A stretch of 33,397 bases of DNA from a virus. Made by a program: the position numbers and the translations under genes. The DNA is taken from positions 1 through 33,397 of IMG/VR virus record IMGVR_UViG_3300008216_002925. One strand, given 5' to 3'. Shown here piece after piece: positions 4,609 to 33,397 of the stretch; position 1 is the stretch's first letter; every line of letters begins with the position of its first letter. The notes beneath the pieces are model-generated. The model saw only the letters and a list, made by a program, of their open reading frames with translations. It was not told the DNA's origin and did not search any database.

Positions 4609-4619
4609 AGGGAATGGTT

Positions 4620-7118
4620 ATGACGGAAAGGTTTACGAATAGCTTTAGCTATGAAACATGGGAACAAAAATATAAATTTAAAAATGACTTGTGTATCGAA
4701 GATACTTGGCATAGGGTTTCTAAAGATTTGGCTTCGATTGAAGAAAATAAAGAAGAATGGGCAAATAAATTTTATAAAGTCCTTGAAGACTTTAAATTTG
4801 TACCCGGTGGTAGAATTACATCTAATGCAGGTACTGGATTAAAAGGTACTACGTACATTAATTGTTTTGTAGATGGATTTGAAGGTAAGGATCTAGATTC
4901 TATCGAAGGTATTTATACTACCCTATTGAGACAGGCTCAAATCTTAAAAAGCGAGGGTGGTTACGGTTTTTGTGTGGATACGCTTCGACCTTGTGGCTCT
5001 CATATTGGCGGTATTAGCAATCAATCTCCGGGTGCTGTAAAATTCTTAGAGTTATGGGACAAGTCTTCAGAAATCATTACCGCTGGTTCTGGAAAAAAGG
5101 CACGCAAAGATCAAAAACATTTTATACGTAAGGGTGCGCAAATGGTTACTATGAGTTGCTGGCATCCTGATGTTATAGAATTTATTGAAGCTAAAAAAAC
5201 TCCCGGTAGACTTTCTAAGTTTAATATGTCTGTTCTATGCACTGATGAGTTTATGGGCGCAATAAAACTAGACATGCCTTGGAAACTTGTATTTCCCAAT
5301 TATGAAAAATATCCTAATGAATATAAAACGAATTGGAATGGAGATCTTAAATCTTGGATTTCTTTAATAGATGACGAAGAATCTATTATGGTTTATCGTG
5401 AATTCGAATCTGCAAGAGATCTATGGAATTTGATTATGGAAAATACCTATAATCGTAACGAACCCGGAGTACTTTTTGTAGACCACATGAACCAAATGAA
5501 CAACTTACATTATTGTGAGTGGATCAACGCTACCAATCCATGTGGAGAACAAGTATTACCCATTGGAGGAGTATGTCTACTGGGCTCTATTAACCTAGTA
5601 CATTTTATTGATCCTGAAAATAAAACATGGAAATATAAAGAACTAAAAGAAACTATTCATACAGCTATTCGTTTTATGGACAATGTAAACGATAAAACCC
5701 ACGTACCATTAAAAAATCAAAAAGAAAATTTGAAAGAGAAGAGACGTATAGGATTAGGCATTTTAGGATATGGGTCTGCTCTGCTCATGGCGCGTATAAA
5801 ATATGGAAGTAGTAAAGCATTAGAGCTTACAGAAAATTTAATGAAGTTTTTTACTAACGAAGCATATAAAGCCTCTGCTTTATTGGCAAAAGAGAAGGGT
5901 ACATTCCCGTTGTACGACAAGGATCACTATCTTAAAGGTGAGTTTATAAAAAGACTAGACCGTAGCACCACCAATTTAATAAAAGAACATGGGATGCGTA
6001 ATTCTCATGTCACATCCATACAGCCAACGGGAAATAGTTCGTGTTTTGCAAATTTGGTTAGTGGAGGATTAGAGCCATTGTTTATGCATGGGTATATTCG
6101 CACCTCAATCCAACCAGCCGCACCTGAAGGGTTGCCTGTTCCCAAAAATATAGACTGGAAAAATAAAACCTTTGATCTAGAAAGCGTTGAAGACAACGAA
6201 GTAAATTGGAATTGGGTTAAGGAGGGGGATGAAGATTTATTAGCAACTAAGTTTGAAGATAAAACGTGGAAGTTTGATAGAACTAGAGGATTATTAAAAG
6301 AAGAATGGGTTGAAGATTATGGTGTTTCACATCTCAAGAATATAAAAAAATGGAATGCAGAAGCTGGATGGGCAGCTTGTACTATGGACCTTGATGTTCA
6401 AGCACACGTTAATACCATGTCTCTGTTTGCTCATTGGGTAGATTCGGCTATCTCTAAAACTATCAACTTACCTAACGACTATCCTTATGACGATTTTAAA
6501 AATGTATATAAGCAAGCATGGGAAAAAGGTATTAAAGGATTCACAACCTATAGAGCTGGAACAATGACCAATGTACTATCAAAGTCTTCTTCTTTAAATA
6601 AAATACAAAAAACTAATTCTCCAGCAAGACCTAGAGAGCTTCCATGTAATGTGCATCATATAACAGTTAAGGGAGAACAGTACTTTGTTATTGTCGGTAT
6701 ATATAATGATGAGCCATATGAAGTGTTTGCTGGAAAAAATGGATTTATTAATAAAAAAGTAAAAACAGGAGTTGTAATCAAATTAGGTAGACCTAAAGGA
6801 GTATATAAGGCCATTTTAGATGATGGTTTAGAAATGTGTCCTATTAATGCTACTTGTAGCGCAGAAGAAGATGCCTTAACTAGAATGACTTCTACTTCAA
6901 TTAGGCATGGCGCAAACATACATATGGTTGTACAACAGCTTGAAAAGGTTAGAGGAGAAATGACGTGCTTAGCAAAAAGTATGGCTAGGGCGCTTAAAAA
7001 GTATATCCCCAATGGTGCCAAAGAAGAGGGTGCTTGCCCAGAGTGTAGTAGTGGGGGATTAATTCGTCAAGAGGGTTGTGTTACTTGTACTCAGTGTGGG
7101 TGGTCGAAATGCGTTTGA
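4620..7118 (+). CDS. nrdJ: Class II (adenosylcobalamin-dependent) ribonucleotide reductase
   Basis: This gene encodes 832 residues from the ATG at 4620, six bases after AAGGGA; the ATG at 4614 has no room for that site. Radical-enzyme residues are present: NPCGEQ with Asn306, Cys308 and Glu310, and the redox pair Cys82 (INCFV) and Cys319 (VCLLGSINL). QPTGNSS and GGLEPLF match the phosphate-binding and substrate loops. About residues 660-780 form a TSCPD-type domain (RPRELPC...), and the protein ends in a zinc-ribbon tail (CPEC, EGC, CTQCGWSKC). This layout is characteristic of class II NrdJ, which needs vitamin B12 rather than a separate radical subunit. It follows dCMP deaminase directly. 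Confidence 0.93.
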   Translation: MTERFTNSFSYETWEQKYKFKNDLCIEDTWHRVSKDLASIEENKEEWANKFYKVLEDFKFVPGGRITSNAGTGLKGTTYINCFVDGFEGKDLDSIEGIYTTLLRQAQILKSEGGYGFCVDTLRPCGSHIGGISNQSPGAVKFLELWDKSSEIITAGSGKKARKDQKHFIRKGAQMVTMSCWHPDVIEFIEAKKTPGRLSKFNMSVLCTDEFMGAIKLDMPWKLVFPNYEKYPNEYKTNWNGDLKSWISLIDDEESIMVYREFESARDLWNLIMENTYNRNEPGVLFVDHMNQMNNLHYCEWINATNPCGEQVLPIGGVCLLGSINLVHFIDPENKTWKYKELKETIHTAIRFMDNVNDKTHVPLKNQKENLKEKRRIGLGILGYGSALLMARIKYGSSKALELTENLMKFFTNEAYKASALLAKEKGTFPLYDKDHYLKGEFIKRLDRSTTNLIKEHGMRNSHVTSIQPTGNSSCFANLVSGGLEPLFMHGYIRTSIQPAAPEGLPVPKNIDWKNKTFDLESVEDNEVNWNWVKEGDEDLLATKFEDKTWKFDRTRGLLKEEWVEDYGVSHLKNIKKWNAEAGWAACTMDLDVQAHVNTMSLFAHWVDSAISKTINLPNDYPYDDFKNVYKQAWEKGIKGFTTYRAGTMTNVLSKSSSLNKIQKTNSPARPRELPCNVHHITVKGEQYFVIVGIYNDEPYEVFAGKNGFINKKVKTGVVIKLGRPKGVYKAILDDGLEMCPINATCSAEEDALTRMTSTSIRHGANIHMVVQQLEKVRGEMTCLAKSMARALKKYIPNGAKEEGACPECSSGGLIRQEGCVTCTQCGWSKCV

Positions 7119-17590: not shown

Positions 17591-18082
17591 ATGATTGAAA
17601 TTAAAATTACTCCACAAATGAAAAAACGAGCGTGGACCAAAGCTAGGCAAATGGGTAAGCTTAGAAACTCTATTACTCGTGGCCAAGGAAACATAGCGGG
17701 ATTTTTGGGAGAAGAAGTGGCTAACGAATTAATTAAAGGACAAGTTAATAATACTTATGATTATGACATCTTATATAAGAATATTAAATATGATGTAAAA
17801 ACTAAAAGATGTACGTCTGCCCCTAAAGATCACTATGAATGTTCAATTGCGGCGTATAACACTAAACAAAAATGCGATAGATATGCATTCGTTCGCATAG
17901 AGTGGGTTAATGGCAAATGGGGAAGAGCATGGGTATTGGGATGGTTAGATCATAAAGAATATTTTAATAAAGCCGAAAAACTCAATCGAGGAGATATTGA
18001 TAGGTCTAATGGATATATGGTAAAAGCAGACTGTTATAATGTGCCGATTAATAAACTAAGAAATTTTAGGAGAAGGAAATGA
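17591..18082 (+). CDS. Possible PD-(D/E)XK nuclease
   Basis: This gene encodes 163 residues. GFLGEEVANELI gives an early helix with Glu41/Glu42, DYDILYKNIKYDVKTKR gives Asp59 and DVK with Asp68 and Lys70. This is the E...D...(D/E)xK order of PD-(D/E)XK nucleases, though I cannot name a family. The protein is basic and ends in FRRRK. It sits between the Cas4-like nuclease and the polymerase, so a resolvase or repair role is plausible. GGGAG at 17578-17582 is the ribosome site. Confidence 0.55.
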   Translation: MIEIKITPQMKKRAWTKARQMGKLRNSITRGQGNIAGFLGEEVANELIKGQVNNTYDYDILYKNIKYDVKTKRCTSAPKDHYECSIAAYNTKQKCDRYAFVRIEWVNGKWGRAWVLGWLDHKEYFNKAEKLNRGDIDRSNGYMVKADCYNVPINKLRNFRRRK

Positions 18083-19956
18083 CTTATGTTCCTTTGCATG
18101 TTCATTCTGAATATAGCTTGTTGAATGGACTTTCGCAAACACATCAGATTTCAAAAAGAATTTCTGATATCGAAAGCAATGTCTGCGCATTAACAGATCA
18201 TGGTAGTGTTTCTGGTGCGGTTGACTTTTCAAGAACTCTAACTAATGCTTCGCAAAAACCCATTCTGGGATGCGAATTTAATATTTGTTTTAATAATGCT
18301 AAAGAAAAAACTCAAGAAAATCGAGATTTAATTCACCAAGTTATTTTAGCAAAGAATTTGCAGGGCTGGAAAGATATTTTAGGTCTAGTATCCCAATCAA
18401 ACCACCCAGATCAATTCTACTATAAGCCACGCATTGATTTTGATCAGCTAAAAAAAGTCGCACAAAAAGGGAATTTAATATCTTTTAGCGGACATTTAGG
18501 TTCATATTTAGGTAGGCTTGCAGAAGAGAACGAACCAGACGATTTGATTTCCAAAGCTGCACTGAAAATGCAAGAAATATTTGGAAAAGATAATTTTTTT
18601 ATTGAAATACAGTTAATCGATTCTGATAACAATGAAACTTCAAAAATTACAGCTGCCAAATTACGTGAGATTTCTAAGCAAACTGGCATTCCATGTGTGG
18701 CAACTCCAGACGCACATTATCCTACTAGAGAGGCCGCAGAGGACCAACAAGTGCTTCTATGCACGTCTTTAAAAAAGACTATAGGACAAGTTCAACGGGA
18801 ATTAAAAGAGGGCAAATCTAAATCCTTACAGTCCTTTTTTTCTTCAAACAACTTCCATATTCCCTCCTATGAGGAGATGAAACAATACCATAATGATGAA
18901 GAGCTAGCCAATACAATTCTCATTGCCGATATGTGCGAACCCTATAATATTCTCGGACCTCCCAATCCACCCGAATTCAAATGTCCCTCTGGATATTCTC
19001 CCAAAGAATACTTGCGTTATCTTTGTAAAATGGGTTGGGCACAAAAAATGCAGCACGTTAACAAAGAGAACCCCAAATTTCCACAATACGGAGAACGGGT
19101 TAATGAAGAGTTAGAGATATTCGAAGGAGCAGGTCTATCTAGTTACTTTTTAATTGTACAAGATATCTTAAAATATTGTAAAGACTCTGGTTATTTAACG
19201 GGTCCGGGACGAGGCAGTGCGGCAGGATGTATGGTTTCTTATTTAATTGGTATTACTCAAATTGATCCAGTGAAATATGATTTGGTATTTGAAAGATTTT
19301 ATAATGCGGGAAGAAATACAGACGAACGAATTTCTATGCCCGATATCGATATCGATATTCCAAAACAAGCCCGAGAAAAAGTTATTGAATATATTAAACA
19401 AAGATACGGTACAAACAATGTTGCTCAAATAGTAACCTATCAAACATTACAAGGACGGTCTGCATTAAAAAGAGTCATGCAAGCTCGTGGTAATATATCT
19501 TTTACAGAACAAAACGAAATTACTAAACATATTATGGATGAGGCAAAGATTGCAGATGAACTTCAGGACATGAAAGAAGAGCTTGGAGAATCATCCCTAA
19601 TTTTATGGGCATTAAAAAATAGAAAAGAAAAACTAAAAGACTGGTGTGAAATAGGTGAGAATGGAAAATTAGAAGGTAAACTATCTAAGGTATTTGAACA
19701 GGCTATGCGTATGGAGGGAACCAAAATTATTCAGTCTAAACATGCAGCAGGTGTTGTAATTTCACCCTCTCCTATTTATGATACATGTCCGATGATTAGA
19801 TCTGCGGCTAAAGGAGATAAAAATCTATTGGCCGGATTTGAAGGACCAAGCTGTGAGGATGTTGGTCTGTTAAAATTAGACGTACTAGGAATTAGAATGT
19901 TAGATAAAATTATGGAAGTTCCGCGTATTATTTCACCCTTACTTCAACAGTCATAG
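18079..19956 (+). CDS. dnaE: DNA polymerase III alpha subunit, N-terminal part (PHP and palm)
   Basis: This gene encodes 625 residues. The N-terminus is a PHP domain (YVPLHVHSEYSLLNG; His7 and His9). The catalytic palm carries GPGRGSAAGCMVSYLIG, PDIDIDI with Asp422 and Asp424, and the third catalytic aspartate in LLKLDVLGI at Asp601. These match E. coli DnaE Asp401, Asp403 and Asp555. The frame ends 24 residues after that aspartate, where E. coli DnaE continues into the fingers. The rest is encoded at 20631-22280, with an exonuclease gene in between. A strong GGAGAAGGAA ribosome site precedes the start. There is no Hint/intein motif at the end, so protein splicing is unlikely. Confidence 0.92.
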   Translation: MTYVPLHVHSEYSLLNGLSQTHQISKRISDIESNVCALTDHGSVSGAVDFSRTLTNASQKPILGCEFNICFNNAKEKTQENRDLIHQVILAKNLQGWKDILGLVSQSNHPDQFYYKPRIDFDQLKKVAQKGNLISFSGHLGSYLGRLAEENEPDDLISKAALKMQEIFGKDNFFIEIQLIDSDNNETSKITAAKLREISKQTGIPCVATPDAHYPTREAAEDQQVLLCTSLKKTIGQVQRELKEGKSKSLQSFFSSNNFHIPSYEEMKQYHNDEELANTILIADMCEPYNILGPPNPPEFKCPSGYSPKEYLRYLCKMGWAQKMQHVNKENPKFPQYGERVNEELEIFEGAGLSSYFLIVQDILKYCKDSGYLTGPGRGSAAGCMVSYLIGITQIDPVKYDLVFERFYNAGRNTDERISMPDIDIDIPKQAREKVIEYIKQRYGTNNVAQIVTYQTLQGRSALKRVMQARGNISFTEQNEITKHIMDEAKIADELQDMKEELGESSLILWALKNRKEKLKDWCEIGENGKLEGKLSKVFEQAMRMEGTKIIQSKHAAGVVISPSPIYDTCPMIRSAAKGDKNLLAGFEGPSCEDVGLLKLDVLGIRMLDKIMEVPRIISPLLQQS

Positions 19957-19966
19957 AGGATTTCAA

Positions 19967-20641
19967 ATGAATAACCGTTGGATTATAGTTTTTGATTGGG
20001 AGACTGACAGTCCAGATCCCACCACTTGCAATCCCGTAGAATTAGCAGCAGTTCCGATAGACCCTAGAACTTTGGATATTAAAATAGACAAAGCTTTTAG
20101 TGCTGCTATTAAACCTCCGGGAATTACCAAAGAAGAATACTTTACTGATGAAAAACAGAAGACCATCGAATGGCACGCAAAACAAAGGGGTGTGACCAGC
20201 GAAGATATTATCAAGAGTTGGAAATCGGGTAAGAGCGAAAAAATTGTTTGGAAAAACTTTTGTGAATATTGTAAAAAGTTTAATATAGAAAAGTCTCATA
20301 ATAACTGGTATACTGAGCCTATTGCTGCTGGCTATAACATTATAGGCTTTGATCTTCCCATTTGTGAAAGACTAGTAAAAAAACATAAAACGAAAATGCC
20401 CTTTGCTAAAGTCACCAAAATAGATGTTATGGACCTTATGTTTTATTGGCTTGAAAATTTAGACGAACCTCAAAATATGAGATTAGATACTATGCGAGGT
20501 TGGTTTGGTATTAAAGCAGAGCAAGCACACGAAGCTTTATCTGATACTATAGATAGTGCAAAATTATTAACACAATTTATGAAATTTCATAGAAGACAAT
20601 CTAGTGTGGCTAAATTTAAGGGAGCGATGTGTGACAAGTGA
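19967..20641 (+). CDS. DEDDh 3'-5' exonuclease (DnaQ-like), lying between the DnaE halves
   Basis: This gene encodes 224 residues. DEDDh motifs: FDWETDS with Asp10 and Glu12, NIIGFDLP with Asp129, and AHEALSDTIDSA with His188 and Asp193 (HxxxxD). This is the proofreading-type exonuclease fold of DnaQ and the PolC exonuclease domain. The phage gene interrupts the polymerase coding region, starting 10 bases after the N-terminal part and overlapping the C-terminal part by 11 bases. It most likely proofreads for this polymerase. GAGG just upstream gives a ribosome site. Confidence 0.88.
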   Translation: MNNRWIIVFDWETDSPDPTTCNPVELAAVPIDPRTLDIKIDKAFSAAIKPPGITKEEYFTDEKQKTIEWHAKQRGVTSEDIIKSWKSGKSEKIVWKNFCEYCKKFNIEKSHNNWYTEPIAAGYNIIGFDLPICERLVKKHKTKMPFAKVTKIDVMDLMFYWLENLDEPQNMRLDTMRGWFGIKAEQAHEALSDTIDSAKLLTQFMKFHRRQSSVAKFKGAMCDK

Positions 20642-22280
20642 AGTCTTTGAATGTGGATGCAAATTTGAAGTGCGCAGTGGCGAGGTTGTCTATGACCCTA
20701 ACATTGAAACACTCCCATTGAACTGCGAAGCTACTTGGGATATGATTTGCGAAGGCAATACCAAAGGTGTGTTCCAATTGGAATCACAGTTGGGTAGAAG
20801 TATGTCCGAAAAAGTTAAGCCTCGCAATATTGAAGAACTATCAGATTTAATTGCTATTATTCGACCCGGTTGTATGGAAGCTATTGTAGATGGCAAAAGT
20901 CTTACACAACACTATATAGATCGTAAGCATGGCATAGATCCGATAGAGTATTTCCACGACGCACTCAAACCCATTCTTTCTAGTACCTATGGCATTTTAG
21001 TTTACCAAGAACAGGCTTTGCTGATAGCTAGGGATATTGGAGGATTTGATTTACAGGAAGCCGACATTCTTCGTAAAGCTATTGGAAAAAAGAACGTTTC
21101 TCTAATGACTAAGTTGAGAAAACAATTTATTGAAAAGGCCGAAGTGAAGGGGACGGTTGATAAACAACAGGCAAAAGAAATTTTTGGGTGGATTGAGAAG
21201 TCACAAAGATATTCTTTTAATAAGTCTCATTCAGTCAGCTATGCATACAATGCTTATCTTACAGCTTATACAAAACAACATTTCCCACACGAGTTTTTTA
21301 CCTCATATCTCAAACATTCTATCGGCAAGCCAGATGCATATTTGGAAATAGAAGAATTAGTAAACAATGCTCGTTTGATGAACATCGACGTTCAGCCTCC
21401 TAATATCAAACAAATGAATAAATATTTTACATTAATTGTTGATACATTCCCAACTTTTGGCATTACAGAAATTAAGGGCGTAGGTGGTTCGGTATACGAC
21501 AAAATGATATTGTGTTTAGAAAGAAATAAAATAGACTTACAAGCGTGTGATTGGGATACATTTCTTATTGGCTTTGGCTCTTGCATTAAAGCAGACTCAT
21601 TTGAAGCCCTAATATTAAGTGGTGCTCTAGATTGTTTTAAAATTAGTCGTAGTAAAATGAGCCATGAATTAAAAATGTTTAGAGAATTAAGCAAGCGAGA
21701 AATTCCTTGGATAGAAAAGTACAAACAAGACAGTCCAAATCAAAACTTTGCTGAGTGCATTCAAGCCATGCTAGATGAAAATAACTGGTCAGATCGTCAT
21801 CGACCAATATTTCGAAAAGATAGAGTTGAAATTGTAGAAAGCATCATTGATTCTTTAAAAAATCCCGGCTATGAATTAGTTGATTTATCGGGTTGGAAAG
21901 CTCGACAAGAAGAAAAATACTTAGGCGTATCATTAACCTGTGCCAGAGTAGACGAATATGATATCAGTGGAGCAAACTGCACCTGTAAGGAATACGTAGA
22001 TGGTTTTAATTCCAAAGGTACAATTAGGATAGCGGCTCAGGTGGACGACGTTAAAGAGTGGAAAATTAAACGGGGAAGTGCTAAGGGGCAAAAAATGGCT
22101 TTCGTGACCGTGAGTGATGGAACATGCAATCTTGATAGTGTAACAATTTTTTCTGAAGAATGGAATAAATATGCTAAACATATTAAGGAAGGAAGTATAC
22201 TATTACTGATAGGTAATAGAGATAAAAAAAGAGGAAGTTTTTTAATAAAATCGGTGTCTAAGATTAAAAATCTAGCTTAG
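20631..22280 (+). CDS. dnaE: DNA polymerase III alpha subunit, C-terminal part (fingers to OB fold)
   Basis: The start is GTG at 20631, six bases after AAGGGAG (20618-20624); an earlier GTG at 20604 lacks such a site. It encodes 549 residues. GNTKGVFQLESQLGRSM and IAIIRPGCME match the fingers motif FQLESRGM...RPGP of DnaE. YSFNKSHSVSYAYNAY matches the FNKSHSxAY element. A helix-hairpin-helix-like region (about 280-310) and a C-terminal OB fold (about 445-549) complete the usual DnaE order. The N-terminal 15 residues carry ECGCKFE, a cysteine pair not expected in DnaE. Joined with the N-terminal part the total is 1174 residues, close to E. coli DnaE (1160). Confidence 0.92.
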   Translation: MTSEVFECGCKFEVRSGEVVYDPNIETLPLNCEATWDMICEGNTKGVFQLESQLGRSMSEKVKPRNIEELSDLIAIIRPGCMEAIVDGKSLTQHYIDRKHGIDPIEYFHDALKPILSSTYGILVYQEQALLIARDIGGFDLQEADILRKAIGKKNVSLMTKLRKQFIEKAEVKGTVDKQQAKEIFGWIEKSQRYSFNKSHSVSYAYNAYLTAYTKQHFPHEFFTSYLKHSIGKPDAYLEIEELVNNARLMNIDVQPPNIKQMNKYFTLIVDTFPTFGITEIKGVGGSVYDKMILCLERNKIDLQACDWDTFLIGFGSCIKADSFEALILSGALDCFKISRSKMSHELKMFRELSKREIPWIEKYKQDSPNQNFAECIQAMLDENNWSDRHRPIFRKDRVEIVESIIDSLKNPGYELVDLSGWKARQEEKYLGVSLTCARVDEYDISGANCTCKEYVDGFNSKGTIRIAAQVDDVKEWKIKRGSAKGQKMAFVTVSDGTCNLDSVTIFSEEWNKYAKHIKEGSILLLIGNRDKKRGSFLIKSVSKIKNLA

Positions 22281-22309: not shown

Positions 22310-22816
22310 ATGGATAATCTAATAGAAAATAACATGGGACTTATACTTACTATAGTTAATAGGTTTAATCCTAAAAATCAAAACGAAAAAGAAGAGTATA
22401 TTCAAGCTGGTCGTATAGGGCTCTGGAAAGCCCTGACTAAATTTTCAACAACTGGGGGTAGCAAGTTTTCTCCGTATGCATGGAACCCTATTAAATGGGA
22501 AATTATTAAAGAGATAAGATCCATTCAAACAAAATATCACATTGAATTCGCAGGATCTGGCAAAGACATTGAAGAATACCAGCTTAAATATTCTAATAAT
22601 GACAAAAATTTTTCTAAAAATGCTTATATTAATAATGATTCTGATTTTTGGGAAATCTTACCTTCAAGTCTTACCACCTTAGAAGAAACTACTATCTCAT
22701 TAAAATCGGAAGGATATAATTTTAAAGAGATATCTAATAAATTAAATCTTGATAGATCTAGAATTAAAAAGATCTTCGACAGCGCAGTAAATAAAATAAG
22801 AGAACATAATAAATGA
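22310..22816 (+). CDS. Phage sigma-70-family sigma factor
   Basis: This gene encodes 168 residues. Region 2 is recognisable: LIENNMGLILTIVNRFN, then EEYIQAGRIGLWKALTKF (family DLIQEGxIGLxxAxxKF), then KFSPYAWNPIKWEIIKEI (family FSTYAxxxIRxxI). The last 45 residues (TTISLKSEGYNFKEISNKLN and following) look like region 4 helix-turn-helix. Region 1 and region 3 are missing. This small form is typical of phage middle or late sigma factors such as T4 gp55. It would guide host RNA polymerase to phage promoters, possibly the TAGGA-rich blocks at 1306 and 2009. GGGGA lies upstream of the ATG. Confidence 0.85.
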   Translation: MDNLIENNMGLILTIVNRFNPKNQNEKEEYIQAGRIGLWKALTKFSTTGGSKFSPYAWNPIKWEIIKEIRSIQTKYHIEFAGSGKDIEEYQLKYSNNDKNFSKNAYINNDSDFWEILPSSLTTLEETTISLKSEGYNFKEISNKLNLDRSRIKKIFDSAVNKIREHNK

Positions 22817-24468
22817 ATAAGCGAAAACGTGTGTTATTAGTAAGTGAAGCCCATTATTTACACTCGGGCTTCGGCACTTACTCTAAAGAGTTGCTTGCTC
22901 GACTACATAAAACAAATAAGTATGAATTAGCAGAGTTTGCTTCTTATGGCAAGCCCAATGCTGTTAAGCCCCCATGGCTATATTATCCCAATACGCCAGA
23001 AGATGGGGATCAGCAACAATTAGAAATCTATAATAAAAATCCAGCGCATCAGTTTGGTACATGGAGATTTGATAAAGTCTGTATAGATTTTAAACCAGAT
23101 ATAGTATTGTGTTATCGCGATCCTTGGATGGACAACTGGATTCAAGACTCTCCTCTTAGGCCGTATTTCCATTGGGTATGGATGCCTACCGTAGACTCTG
23201 CTCCACAAAAACAAGAGTGGATTGATACTTTTACTAGATGTGACGCCGTTTTGGCCTACTCTGAATTTGGCGGCGAAACTTTGCAAAATCAGGGTAAAGA
23301 AAGAATTAATTATATTGGGTGTGCCTCTCCGGGAGTTGACCCATCTGTCTATAAGCCTATGAACAAAAAAGAACATAGAAAACAACTAAATGTCGATCCT
23401 GATATTTTCATCATAGGATCAGTCATGAGAAATCAAAGACGCAAGCTATTTTTTGAACTTATGAAAGGCTTTAGATTATTTTTAGATCAAGCGCCTACAG
23501 AAATAGCTCAGAAAACATTCTTATATTTACATACTAGTTATCCAGAAAAAATGGGATGGGACATAGCACAGGGGATTATGGAAAATCATTTGGGCGGCAA
23601 GGTATTAATGACATATGTTTGTAAGGTGTGTGGTAAATTTTTTCCTAATATGTTTCAAGATGCTTTATGTAAGTGTCAACACTGCGGAAGTAAATCGGCT
23701 ATATGTCCAACTGTTGGCATGGGTCTATCAATTCCAGACTTAGCTAAAATCTATAACCTCTTTGATTTATACGCACAGTACGCTATTTGTGAGGGGTTTG
23801 GAATGCCTCAAGTTGAAGCTGCCGCTTGTGGAATTCCTGTAACAGCAACAGACTATAGCGCTATGCATGATGTGCTTCACTTTACAAAAGGCTATCCGAT
23901 TCCCGTAAGAACTTTCTTTAGAGAACTCGAAACAGATGCGGAAAGAGCTTATCCAGATAATCAAAAATTTGCTGAGATCGTTATAGACTTTTTTCAACAA
24001 ACAGAACAATCACGTATGCATAAGTCAATGGAGGTTCGTAAAGCTACGGTCAATAAATATACGTGGGATAACGCAGCTCAGGTTTGGGAAAAGTATATAG
24101 ATTCTTATAAGGCTACAGGCTTACAAGGACAATGGGATACGCCCCCTAATCTATTAAACATTCCTAACGTAATTGATAACAATATCAAATCACACCAAGA
24201 TTTTGTATATTGGATTTTTCGTAATTTAAATATGCCAGAAAGAGCGTACCAATATGAAGGTAAGCAAATGCTTAGGAATCTTACATTTGGCGCACAAATG
24301 GGACAGGGGGTATTAGAACCAATTAATTCACAACAAATTTTTGATACCTTTAAGCAAAGAATGACCAACATAAATCAGACAGAGCTAGTTAGAAGTGGTA
24401 ATACTACTGTATCACCTGATCCCTTTATAGTAGCGGCACACCAAGTACTAAAGGAACAGCAAAAATGA
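22813..24468 (+). CDS. GT-B glycosyltransferase (GT4-like) with inserted zinc cluster
   Basis: This gene encodes 551 residues. The N-domain opens RVLLVSEAHYLHSGFGTYSKELL, and the C-domain has ICEGFGMPQVEAAACGIPVTATD with the EGFGMPQVE pair of glutamates of retaining GT4 enzymes. Between the domains, residues 270-298 hold six cysteines (CKVC, then CKCQHC and a further Cys), which look like an inserted zinc site, unusual for GT4. A ~110-residue C-terminal extension follows. It probably transfers a sugar from a nucleotide sugar; donor and acceptor are unknown. First gene of the glycan cassette, overlapping the sigma gene by ATGA. Confidence 0.8.
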   Translation: MNKRKRVLLVSEAHYLHSGFGTYSKELLARLHKTNKYELAEFASYGKPNAVKPPWLYYPNTPEDGDQQQLEIYNKNPAHQFGTWRFDKVCIDFKPDIVLCYRDPWMDNWIQDSPLRPYFHWVWMPTVDSAPQKQEWIDTFTRCDAVLAYSEFGGETLQNQGKERINYIGCASPGVDPSVYKPMNKKEHRKQLNVDPDIFIIGSVMRNQRRKLFFELMKGFRLFLDQAPTEIAQKTFLYLHTSYPEKMGWDIAQGIMENHLGGKVLMTYVCKVCGKFFPNMFQDALCKCQHCGSKSAICPTVGMGLSIPDLAKIYNLFDLYAQYAICEGFGMPQVEAAACGIPVTATDYSAMHDVLHFTKGYPIPVRTFFRELETDAERAYPDNQKFAEIVIDFFQQTEQSRMHKSMEVRKATVNKYTWDNAAQVWEKYIDSYKATGLQGQWDTPPNLLNIPNVIDNNIKSHQDFVYWIFRNLNMPERAYQYEGKQMLRNLTFGAQMGQGVLEPINSQQIFDTFKQRMTNINQTELVRSGNTTVSPDPFIVAAHQVLKEQQK

Positions 24469-25595
24469 ACATCTTGTTTATTGGCCCATACAAACAACAT
24501 GATGAATGGGGTAACAAAAGTCGTAGTATATTGCAAGCATTACAAAACACCAATCATAATATTACGTCAAGACCCATATTTTTATCTAACAATCCAAATT
24601 ATAATACATCTATTATGTCTTCAGAACTTACTGTATCAAATACATACGATGTTGTAATACAGTTTATACTACAACCATATACAACATATATAGGAAAAAT
24701 ACCAAGGAATATTGGTATATTCAATTATGAAACTGTTCCAGAGAACTTGCCCATAGACCTATTAAGTGCAGAAACTTTAATGGACGAAATATGGACAGAA
24801 AGTTCTTCTGTGAAAGGTGGTTTGGAGGCTCTGTTTAAGAAAAAAAATATTAATACGAAAGTTACACAGATACCTTTAACATTAAATGTAGACGAGTTAC
24901 CAAAAGAACCAGACGTATTAAAGAAAAATCCTCAATTAGAAAATCGCTTTATCTTTTATTGTATATGTGATTTATTAGATGATCAAGACGCATTTAAAGA
25001 AATATGTATGGCATATTTTAATACCTTTACACAACAAGACATGGTTGCTTTAGTGGCATTTTCTAATACATACATAGAAGATCAAAAGGTACGAGATCTT
25101 TTAACAGATGTCAGATCCTCAATTGGAAATTTAACGTCTATTCAAGACCAAGCTGTTATAAATATAACAATGCCACAACCGCCCACGGGAACTTGGACTT
25201 TGCAAGATAGGGTCAATATGCATAGTCAAGGAGATGCTATGATTTCTATATCTCATTCTGTTGCTGCTAAATCGACTGTATTAGAAGCAGCGATGTATCA
25301 AAAAACCCCTATTGTGAACAACCGGAATTCGGCATATGATTTACTAGGAGAAGAAAATTTGTGGGGGATAGAATCTTATAATGACATTTGTACCTATAAA
25401 GGTAGACCTTTAAATTTTAGGTTTACAGCAGGTGAGCTATGGAATACTACTAATATTAAATCTTTAGGGACGACCATGCAAAGTTGTTATATTAACAAAC
25501 TAGAGCGAGACAAAAAAAGGCTTGCTAATAGTCAATTACGTCAACAGTTTGCAAGTGTTGACTATGAAAAGATTTTAAATGAAGGAAGTATATGA
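24465..25595 (+). CDS. Glycosyltransferase-like protein
   Basis: This gene encodes 376 residues. The start MNILFIGPYKQHDEWGNKSR resembles a GT-B N-domain nucleotide-sugar strand. The C-terminal part has GDAMISISHSVAAKSTVLEA and then AMYQKTPIVNNRNSAYDLL, the position of the donor-binding E...(A/P)xGxP motif of GT4 enzymes, here reduced. NYETVPENLP recalls the N-terminal domain of GT4-type enzymes. The catalytic glutamate pattern is weaker than in its neighbour, so activity is uncertain. ATGA overlaps join it to both flanking genes. Confidence 0.65.
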   Translation: MNILFIGPYKQHDEWGNKSRSILQALQNTNHNITSRPIFLSNNPNYNTSIMSSELTVSNTYDVVIQFILQPYTTYIGKIPRNIGIFNYETVPENLPIDLLSAETLMDEIWTESSSVKGGLEALFKKKNINTKVTQIPLTLNVDELPKEPDVLKKNPQLENRFIFYCICDLLDDQDAFKEICMAYFNTFTQQDMVALVAFSNTYIEDQKVRDLLTDVRSSIGNLTSIQDQAVINITMPQPPTGTWTLQDRVNMHSQGDAMISISHSVAAKSTVLEAAMYQKTPIVNNRNSAYDLLGEENLWGIESYNDICTYKGRPLNFRFTAGELWNTTNIKSLGTTMQSCYINKLERDKKRLANSQLRQQFASVDYEKILNEGSI

Positions 25596-26560
25596 TATCT
25601 ATTAATAATATTGTCAGGTCAGTTGATAGAGCTTCTAATGATTCTGATATTAAACAACTCAATATTTTAACTCTTTGTAAAGGTAATGAAAAGTATATTA
25701 CATTATTATCACAATTACTTCACAACTTTTACCTACTTCCAGATCAACCTTGGAATATGATCGTAGAGAAAAGGCCTCCCAATCTTCAAACCTTATCCCT
25801 ATGCGTCGGACCACTTGATTACATTATATGCTTTGATCGTGCTGAACAATATGAAGAAGCTCAAAAAATAGCAAAAACGTGGCATGTTCCTATAATCTTG
25901 GTTGACATGTGTACGCATCATTTTATAAGACCACAAAATATTATAGAAGGTGTTAGCGTAAAAGATCAATCTCAATTATATAAAAAGCCAGCTTTACAAG
26001 TGGCCTGTACGCAAAACATACAAACTTCGTGGAATCATGGAGAACCCTCAATTACTATTCCGATAGGTATAGATACCGATAAATTTAAAAATACAACCAC
26101 AGACAATGATTATTTTATTGCTATTGATAACCATGTACCGACAGAAATAGGAAGTCTGATAGGTAGTAAACTTTTGACCTCTTATACAATGATTCCTACA
26201 GACCATAATGATTTAACAGATATAGCAGTTAATAAAGCTAGATATTTTATTAATACATATAAGACAGTAACAGTTAAAATGTTAGAAGCCATGTCTGCTG
26301 GAGCTGTTGTTATAACTGTCAAAAATCCCGATACAGAAAATTTTATCAAACACTTATCTACGGGAATTTTAATCGATAGTCTAGACGATCTACCTATCGT
26401 CATAAATACGGTAGAGAATAAAGATAAAGATTTTAAGTTACAAATTTGTAAAGCAGCTAGAGATAAAATTATAGCCGAACATTCTGTCAAAAACTTTCTC
26501 GATAAATGGACTCAGGCATTGACAATGCTTAAATCAGCGTTTTATACACCTCCAATTTAA
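25592..26560 (+). CDS. Glycosyltransferase-like protein
   Basis: This gene encodes 322 residues. The centre reads ITIPIGIDTDKF, a GT-B inter-domain signature (P-x-GID...F), and the C-domain contains VTVKMLEAMSAGAVVITVKN, close to the E-A-x-A-x-G-x-P-V motif but with a Val where Pro is usual. SLDDLPIVINTV and IIAEHSVKNFLDKW match the C-terminal helices of such enzymes. The donor sugar is unknown. It is coupled by ATGA to the previous gene, and an 11-base gap separates it from the next. Confidence 0.7.
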   Translation: MISINNIVRSVDRASNDSDIKQLNILTLCKGNEKYITLLSQLLHNFYLLPDQPWNMIVEKRPPNLQTLSLCVGPLDYIICFDRAEQYEEAQKIAKTWHVPIILVDMCTHHFIRPQNIIEGVSVKDQSQLYKKPALQVACTQNIQTSWNHGEPSITIPIGIDTDKFKNTTTDNDYFIAIDNHVPTEIGSLIGSKLLTSYTMIPTDHNDLTDIAVNKARYFINTYKTVTVKMLEAMSAGAVVITVKNPDTENFIKHLSTGILIDSLDDLPIVINTVENKDKDFKLQICKAARDKIIAEHSVKNFLDKWTQALTMLKSAFYTPPI

Positions 26561-32172: not shown

Positions 32173-32784
32173 ATGAACCCTTATAAAGTTCTTGGAATTG
32201 CCGAAAATGCCAATAAAGAAGTAATTAATGAGGCTTATCGTAAGTTAGCTCTCAAATATCATCCTGATCGTGGAGGTAATACTGAGAAATTTAAAGAAGC
32301 TACAGAGGCCTATTCGATTCTTTCTGATGAACAAAAAAGACATCAATATCACAACCCACAACCAAACGTTGCCTTCGAAACTGTATTTGGACAAGGCTTA
32401 AATCCGTTTGCAAATTTCTTTACCCCACGTACCGCACAACCAAGGAAGGTTCAACCAAACACGCTAGATAAAGATATTCAATTCAACTTACATATTAACT
32501 TAGAACAGGTCAAAAAAGGTGCTTATAGCACCATTTCTTATAAAAAAAATACAATCTGCACAGACTGTAACGGACAGGGTGGTGATGGTAAGATAGGTTG
32601 TTCTAATTGTGGAGGATCAGGAAGGAAAATGTTTAGGCCCAACCCGTCTGTGATACAGCAGATCACCTGCTCGGCCTGTCACGGCAATGGCGTATTGTTT
32701 AATAAACCCTGTCAAACCTGTCAAACCAACGGTTTTGTACAACATATAGAGCAAATAACAATTAAAATTGAAGAGGCAAAATAA
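32173..32784 (+). CDS. Shortened DnaJ-type co-chaperone
   Basis: This gene encodes 203 residues. The J domain is complete (YKVLGIAENANKEVINEAYR, then HPD at 30-32). A short Gly/Phe-like linker (FGQGLNPFANFF) follows. The zinc-finger region has all four CxxCxGxG-type repeats (CTDCNGQG, CSNCGGSG, CSACHGNG and CQTCQTNG). The protein stops soon after, so it lacks most of the C-terminal substrate-binding and dimer domain of bacterial DnaJ (about 370 residues). The downstream frames do not continue that domain, so this is a natural short form. It would stimulate host DnaK, or the actin/Hsp70-like ATPase encoded nearby. Confidence 0.9.
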   Translation: MNPYKVLGIAENANKEVINEAYRKLALKYHPDRGGNTEKFKEATEAYSILSDEQKRHQYHNPQPNVAFETVFGQGLNPFANFFTPRTAQPRKVQPNTLDKDIQFNLHINLEQVKKGAYSTISYKKNTICTDCNGQGGDGKIGCSNCGGSGRKMFRPNPSVIQQITCSACHGNGVLFNKPCQTCQTNGFVQHIEQITIKIEEAK

Positions 32785-32830: not shown

Positions 32831-33106
32831 ATGATTACAAAAGCCAGTGAAATATTTATAAATAGCTTGGCATATTCCTTTTGGCCCTTTCTATTTATTC
32901 TTATAGTTATATATTTATTAAATAAGTTCTTTAATCATGGATATACTAAAAGTATAGAAAAACAAAATAGGGTCTTAGGAAAGAGTAAAAACTTAACCCT
33001 TCCAGACATGCCAGAAGAATCCATTTCTTTTAAAGCTCCTAAAATAGAAACCTCTTTTGGAGAGCAAAGAATAGGGCAAATCTACAGTGCGAAACCGAAG
33101 GATTAG
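32831..33106 (+). CDS. Small single-pass membrane protein
   Basis: The start is the ATG at 32831, preceded by GGAGGTAAG; a TTG at 32768 would give an N-terminal extension overlapping DnaJ with no ribosome site. It encodes 91 residues. One transmembrane segment covers about residues 15-35 (SFWPFLFILIVIYLLNKFF). The rest is polar. The stop lies inside the open stretch that leads to the ATPase gene, so the two genes are near-contiguous and could be regulated together. The 46 bases between DnaJ and this gene hold only the ribosome site. Confidence 0.65.
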   Translation: MITKASEIFINSLAYSFWPFLFILIVIYLLNKFFNHGYTKSIEKQNRVLGKSKNLTLPDMPEESISFKAPKIETSFGEQRIGQIYSAKPKD

Positions 33107-33239
33107 AAAGGTTACTGGACTTCAAGAAACATATATTGATTTAGAACACGTATCAGGTTTTGCCCCTCCACAATTACCAGTCGAACAATCGAAGAGCAAT
33201 TTCGATTCATATCAACCAAAAGTATATGAGGTATTTACT

Positions 33240-33397
33240 ATGAGCGATAGTACAGAAGCCCCTAATAAACGTGCCGTAGGCGTAGACATTGGAACTGGCT
33301 TTATTTCCTGTGCCGAAAGAGTGGGAGAGGATGTTGAGTTTCGTAAGGTCAGGGACGCTTTCTTTAAATTAAACCCTTCTAAGTTTTTAGAAGGCGC
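33240..33397 (+). CDS. Actin/Hsp70-superfamily ATPase, N-terminal fragment (runs off the window end)
   Basis: The ATG at 33240 is preceded by GAGG at 33228-33231. The first 53 codons read to the window end. Residues 13-23 are AVGVDIGTGFI, the phosphate-1 loop (GxDxGTGxx) of the actin/Hsp70/FtsA/ParM superfamily. The following RDAFFKLNP fits the MreB/FtsA/ParM side more than DnaK. The frame is also open upstream to a GTG at 33087, so a longer N-terminus is possible. In phages such proteins can form filaments. Its position beside DnaJ and a membrane protein is notable. The family within the superfamily cannot be fixed from 53 residues. Confidence 0.7.
   Translation, partial: MSDSTEAPNKRAVGVDIGTGFISCAERVGEDVEFRKVRDAFFKLNPSKFLEG

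Follow-up and report, generated by a model that had tools for sequence, protein, structure and literature searches.

A phage cassette in which a small membrane protein gene overlaps a volactin-type actin gene with two conserved in-frame start codons

At the end of a viral DNA record, a gene for a small membrane protein overlaps the beginning of a gene for an actin-like ATPase that carries two conserved in-frame start codons, and both start codons are present in all 17 distinct members of this cassette that we compared. The stretch of DNA analysed here (hereafter ‘the window’) spans 33,397 bases of a virus record, IMG/VR IMGVR_UViG_3300008216_002925, and its end truncates the actin gene. The first start codon, GTG 33087, resides within the membrane protein gene and is followed by a 51-codon extension, whereas the second, ATG 33240, begins the actin core. 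We consider it probable that the cassette as a whole encodes a membrane partner and a dual-start volactin-type actin, such that the tail of the partner tethers a filament in which the longer isoform is a minority component. The features on which this explanation draws are listed in Table 1.

Table 1. Features of the cassette and its upstream neighbour in the window.
Feature	Position	Strand	Basis or description
DnaJ-like gene upstream of the cassette	32173..32784	+	J domain and CXXCXGXG zinc fingers; short protein
Small membrane protein gene, 91 aa	32831..33106	+	Alignment of 17 members; hydropathy
Conserved tail PKIETSFGxxRIG of the membrane protein	33038..33076	+	P, IETSFG and RIG invariant in 17/17
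Upstream TAG closing the ATPase frame	33072..33074	+	Sequence reading; junction comparison
Weak Shine-Dalgarno-like AGGG for the long start	33073..33076	+	10 nt spacing; duplex -3.5 kcal/mol
GTG, predicted start of the long isoform, within the membrane protein gene	33087..33089	+	Sequence reading and conservation
51-codon N-terminal extension	33087..33239	+	Basic head (RRIRKVTGLQETYI), variable linker, then SYQPKVYEVF
GAGG, putative internal Shine-Dalgarno sequence, -12 to -9 of ATG 33240	33228..33231	+	
ATG, predicted start codon for the short isoform; the volactin-type actin core begins here and runs off the window	33240..33397	+	

The overlapping junction and the cassettes that share it

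The ATPase frame in the window is open from 33075, directly 3ʹ of an in-frame TAG, and GTG 33087 is in frame with both ATG 33240 and the ATPase that follows. Because this GTG is the sole ATG, GTG or TTG codon between the TAG and ATG 33240, a longer form of the ATPase could not be produced without frameshifting. The membrane protein gene terminates at its own TAG (33104-33106) and overlaps the ATPase gene by 20 nt in a +1 relation. Its start, ATG 32831, was picked by alignment, and TTG 32768 is also in frame. Reading of the frames thus confirms a preliminary description of this DNA, in which the ATPase frame was said to be open back to GTG 33087 and to overlap the end of the membrane protein gene in a +1 relation.

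A protein search of IMG/VR revealed 11 loci with the junction, and alignment searches found further loci. A DNA pattern for IETSFGxxRIG matched 19 contigs, none of which was new, and one further scan likewise gave no additional cassette contig; it yielded four distant loci (L160-L162 and L164) that stand outside our counts. A pattern scan of genome contigs returned 62 stretches, none of them confirmed, and blastn against phage records gave no match. The resulting collection comprises 20 cassette records including the window, of which 17 are distinct members; L006 and L007, whose junction is the same as that of L005, and L031, which is identical to L030, were excluded. The members are related, and therefore counts across the 17 are not independent, whereas the Shine-Dalgarno tests described below treat members as independent. 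In a quick tree, from which the truncated window gene was left out, a branch with SH-aLRT 94 separates the 16 complete cassette members from the rest; their neighbours in the tree are L046 and L047, both of which are short. The deeper joins of this tree are unsure because of long branches.

The cassette occurs in several different neighbourhoods. A tape-measure gene family is found a few genes away in L004 and L008-L012 (PHROG match tested on L008). Sugar-epimerase and HNH genes (tested on L030) reside beside the cassette in L030, L035 and L040, and in L003 and L005 it is accompanied by a DUF1501 gene (tested on L005). The neighbours of L041 gave no match to those of other members. The DnaJ-like gene accompanies the cassette in four of the 17 members (the window, L002, L014 and L024) and is not a fixed part of it; these loci carry a saccharopine-dehydrogenase-like gene downstream where sequence extends (Pfam tested on L002).

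Elsewhere in the window, a gene for large-subunit ribonucleotide reductase (834 aa) is found at 4614-7118, and DNA polymerase III alpha occupies two genes within 18079-22280, one encoding PHP plus the N-terminal half (18079-19956) and the other the C-terminal half (20604-22280); an RNase_T-type exonuclease gene (19967-20641) intervenes. The region 22813-26560 includes two glycosyltransferase-like genes (22813-24468 and 25592-26560) that flank a gene without a Pfam match.

The volactin-type actin and its two start codons

Full-length relatives of the window gene identify the ATPase as a volactin-type actin (Pfam PF25216). Relative to a curated cut-off of 35 bits, the proteins of L002, L011, L030, L040 and L041 score 250, 264, 272, 260 and 258 bits, respectively, and the match for L002, the nearest relative, has an E value of 5e-74. 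The window’s own 52-residue fragment scores 20 bits, which is below the cut-off, over profile positions 2-38. A Foldseek search with a structure model of L002 gave Mbl, MreB and MamK as best matches, and its hits included PDB 2wus, whose title names the MreB-RodZ complex; phmmer against PDB found no match at an E value of 0.01. An Hsp70 identity, as the DnaJ neighbour might imply, was rejected, since the L002 and L011 actins match Volactin and no Hsp70 family up to an E value of 0.1. In addition, the DnaJ family was found beside only four of the 17 members, although upstream sequence is short for some of the 17.

The codon for the long start lies inside the end of the membrane protein gene in every distinct member (overlaps of 11-23 nt) and is ATG in 15 and GTG in the remaining two, which are the window and L002. 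An in-frame stop is located 3-5 codons 5ʹ of this codon in 16 members and 12 codons away in L010. Downstream of it, 47-82 codons run without a stop in all 17, and the extension as a separate small gene is ruled out because no member has a stop between extension and actin. The extension exhibits dN/dS values of 0.09-0.50 in eight of ten pairs, dS being saturated in the other two; core dS was finite in seven of these eight pairs, and in those the core yields 0.01-0.10 and is thus more constrained.

Most extensions open with a head centred on SGYRQ or TGLQE, continue through a variable linker and end in a stretch that can be recognised ahead of the internal methionine. In L030, L035 and L040, the extension is instead a very different, zinc-ribbon-like CxxC...CPxC segment, for which Pfam returned no family (L030 and L040 searched). 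Their TGFSF can be aligned over SGYQQSF, and therefore a common origin with the usual extension is possible. Residues 1-46 of the L002 model have pLDDT values under 50, the core being confident, and a zinc-ribbon member gave a poor model (mean pLDDT 63.7). The 51-residue extension is probably flexible.

Because the start codon and the unbroken frame recur in all 17 members and the peptide is under selection, these comparisons support a longer N-terminus for the ATPase, in which the upstream codons would be real protein. The earlier judgement that the 51 upstream codons look coding is borne out by the same arrangement in 16 other distinct cassettes and by the dN/dS of the extension. Comparison of the junction in related phages had been proposed as a check, and initiation only at 33240 together with a lack of upstream conservation had been named as what would speak against the longer frame; the upstream codons proved to be conserved in all 17 distinct cassettes.

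There are also indications that the internal ATG is used, and therefore the choice between the long and short starts is probably not an either/or one. A methionine is present at the position of ATG 33240 in every member, including the zinc-ribbon-like L030, L035 and L040, amid variable surrounding residues, and it falls in one alignment column in 15 of the 16 complete members (L041 is four columns off). The sequence GAGG is found 6-14 nt 5ʹ of this ATG in 13 of 17 members (counted by eye from lists; absent in L004, L009, L011 and L012), compared with 23 of 760 background internal methionines. The mean anti-Shine-Dalgarno energy at the internal start is -6.0, versus -1.8 for the 760 internal methionines; in 116 long open reading frames (ORFs), the first start codon averages -4.0. 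At the long start the mean is -6.1, such that ribosome-binding sequence exceeds background at both starts on average, with L003, L040 and the window being singly weak there. For the window, the internal value (-6.9) is stronger than that of the long start (-3.5), which 22% of background internal methionines equal or better.

Codon choice offers a further indication. The glutamate codon within or beside GAGG is GAG in 14 of 14 cases, a count made by eye. It includes L008, whose glutamate lies at -9 instead of -12, but neither L011 and L012, which lack a glutamate there, nor L041 (GAG GAG). By comparison, GAG accounts for 142 of 395 core glutamate codons, and the 11 invariant core glutamate columns of 13 complete members (a control that also omits the truncated window gene) carry 2 to 8 GAG codons each, with a maximum of 8/13. 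Uniform GAG at a synonymous site suggests that the nucleotides, and not the residue, are what is constrained. From this sequence evidence, ATG 33240 looks like a working start as well.

A simpler possibility is that GTG 33087 gives rise to a single long product through an ordinary gene overlap, with Met 33240 serving as an internal structural residue. The start codon and open frame shared by all 17 members suit this possibility equally, and such overlaps are common in these loci, where 48 of 198 other ORFs have a +1 ATG within their last 20 nt. Moreover, EVFTMA (residues 51-56) is a predicted strand in the L002 model (pLDDT about 77-86), where the glutamate and methionine could be kept for structure. 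However, this would leave the synonymous use of GAG unexplained, and it must also accommodate GAGG preceding the ATG in very different peptide contexts and a methionine retained within a variable stretch. We therefore judge a single long product to be unlikely, while regarding it as the main alternative to the use of both starts.

The preliminary description had offered two accounts of the upstream frame, and where the longer N-terminus stands, the other, a programmed +1 frameshift that joins the membrane anchor to the ATPase, does not. Such an event would be permitted by the +1 relation and by an overlap that starts at 33075 and contains no stop before the one that ends the membrane frame (33104-33106). 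However, the ATPase has an independent start codon in all 17 members, mostly with a Shine-Dalgarno-like sequence, and the last sense codons of the membrane protein gene vary (GAT, AAT, GCT, ACT, GAG, ACC, TCA, AAA and ACA). Inspection of the 17 overlaps by eye found no shared slippery site, and no member has the two genes in one frame. The fusion was rejected on these grounds and is very improbable.

That the short ATPase alone is made, with the upstream frame open by chance or composition, would agree with the weak Shine-Dalgarno sequence at the window GTG and with the short distant relatives, but is scarcely credible given 47-82 open codons in 17/17 members, conserved peptide motifs and purifying selection, and a chance open frame is ruled out by this conservation.

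Counts for non-cassette loci are drawn from the best 80 of 258 viral relatives, and phage records L026 and L027 were added to the tree, to the list of tail ORFs and to the motif and hydropathy counts of these loci. Among the 58 non-cassette loci in which the motif GxDxGT was located, the frame is open for no more than 33 codons before the motif in 57 and for 62 codons in L088. Three such short proteins were tested, and each still covers the Pfam Volactin model. In distant phage relatives, the open frame thus accommodates only slightly more than the short form.

The membrane protein and its tail

The membrane proteins of all 17 members contain one hydrophobic stretch, with a 19-residue mean hydropathy of 1.48 to 2.92 (lowest in L024 and L025). 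In the window protein, the span peaks at 2.12 (residues 12-30) and has a net charge of +2 on its C-terminal side. A net positive stretch follows the span in 16 of 17 members, which suggests that the tail is cytosolic. Pfam searches of the membrane protein gave no significant match, RodZ-like or other. The RIG codons of the conserved tail double as the TAG of the ATPase frame and the AGGG sequence.

Loosely similar tails are present beyond the cassette. A loose tail motif, devised after seeing the tails ([KRM][ILV], up to four residues, then FG[KDENI]), was sought in all plus-strand ORFs of 60 aa or more from the collected loci. It matched 45 of 753 distinct ORFs, each of them positioned 5ʹ of a volactin gene and no more than about 1.2 kb from it. 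The non-cassette loci number 63, many of them near-copies; five have too little upstream sequence, and among the remaining 58 a small gene with the tail motif is found in 47 and is absent in 11. Most of these tails read W.[IV]P[DE]F followed by K[ILV].FGK. The loose motif falls in a listed ORF in 20 of 32 non-cassette loci, and because the hydropathy mean is at most 1.01 in all 20, these tail proteins look soluble. The likeness between cassette and non-cassette tails is short and loose, and homology between them stays putative. Nevertheless, the pattern suggests that the tail could be a filament-binding or docking peptide common to phage volactin operons, which has become membrane-tethered in this clade.

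A small gene with the W.[IV]P[DE]F...K[ILV].FGK tail is present upstream of volactin in L051 (3410-3640), and similar genes occur elsewhere; the L051 gene has no Pfam match, and the L051 and L027 versions have no PHROG match. In L048, L090, L091 and L100, some 0.6-1.2 kb of other sequence intervenes between the small partner gene and the volactin frame. The gene preceding volactin in L089 resembles, by eye, part of a mobile endonuclease.

A proposed tethered filament and its relation to known systems

At the sequence level, both start codons, the extension and the tail are conserved, and from this conservation we infer how the cassette might be translated and might function. In the proposed arrangement, a small membrane protein gene is followed by a volactin-type actin gene that overlaps it by 11-23 nt and offers two in-frame starts. 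Ribosomes initiating at GTG 33087, in the 3ʹ end of the membrane protein gene, would produce a long isoform with the 51-residue extension, whereas those initiating at ATG 33240 would produce the short core, which is near the sole form possible in distant phage relatives. The short form is expected to assemble into ATP-dependent filaments, and the cytosolic tail PKIETSFGxxRIG of the partner would bind the actin and thereby tether it to the membrane. The long isoform would be present as a minority subunit, and its extension would supply an additional contact, such as one with the membrane partner or at the end of a filament.

We put forward a broader history more tentatively. The cassette may be a mobile unit encoding a membrane-tethered volactin, in which a tail that acts as a general docking signal of phage volactins became membrane-anchored in this clade, and in which the gain of an overlapping start created a long isoform for capping or anchoring.

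MreB and RodZ exemplify how an actin-like filament protein can be bound by a membrane partner with a single span. The partner described here has about 90 aa, a short tail and no RodZ-like Pfam match, and its binding is predicted. AlpC of prophage CGP3 has been described as a phage actin-like protein and thus as a mobile-element actin. AlpC and plasmid ParM (with ParR) each operate with a small partner protein, and both actins belong to a subfamily different from volactin. These systems share with the cassette an actin on a mobile element, whereas the partner in this clade is membrane-anchored. Nested in-frame starts are established in bacterial and phage genes such as those for IF2, lambda S, McrB and ClpB. 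The cassette would likewise derive two isoforms from one gene by using two ribosome-binding sites, in this case for an actin-type filament protein. Titles and abstract openings from searches of an open-licence library yielded no report of an actin-type filament gene with nested starts, and none of phage volactin or its isoforms. What is new here is the evidence for ATG 33240 as a second start.

The family takes its name from volactin (VolA) of Haloferax volcanii, and full-length relatives of the window gene score in this Pfam family, PF25216. According to passages of PMC10869688, VolA forms dynamic filaments that are bound to the membrane by their tips, and control of its polymerisation by as yet unnamed binding factors is suggested; these passages name no anchor between filament tip and membrane. 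VolA is a cellular archaeal protein, whereas the gene described here is carried by a phage, encodes an extended N-terminus, probably has a second in-frame start and overlaps the gene of a membrane-protein partner.

For annotators, the arrangement means that the first start of the actin gene sits inside the neighbouring gene. For the biology of these phages, the cassette would represent a filament system with two isoforms, each of which could be probed through its own start codon. In addition, the presence of volactin with a small membrane protein bearing an invariant tail in all 20 records may offer a concrete model for the volactin membrane anchor.
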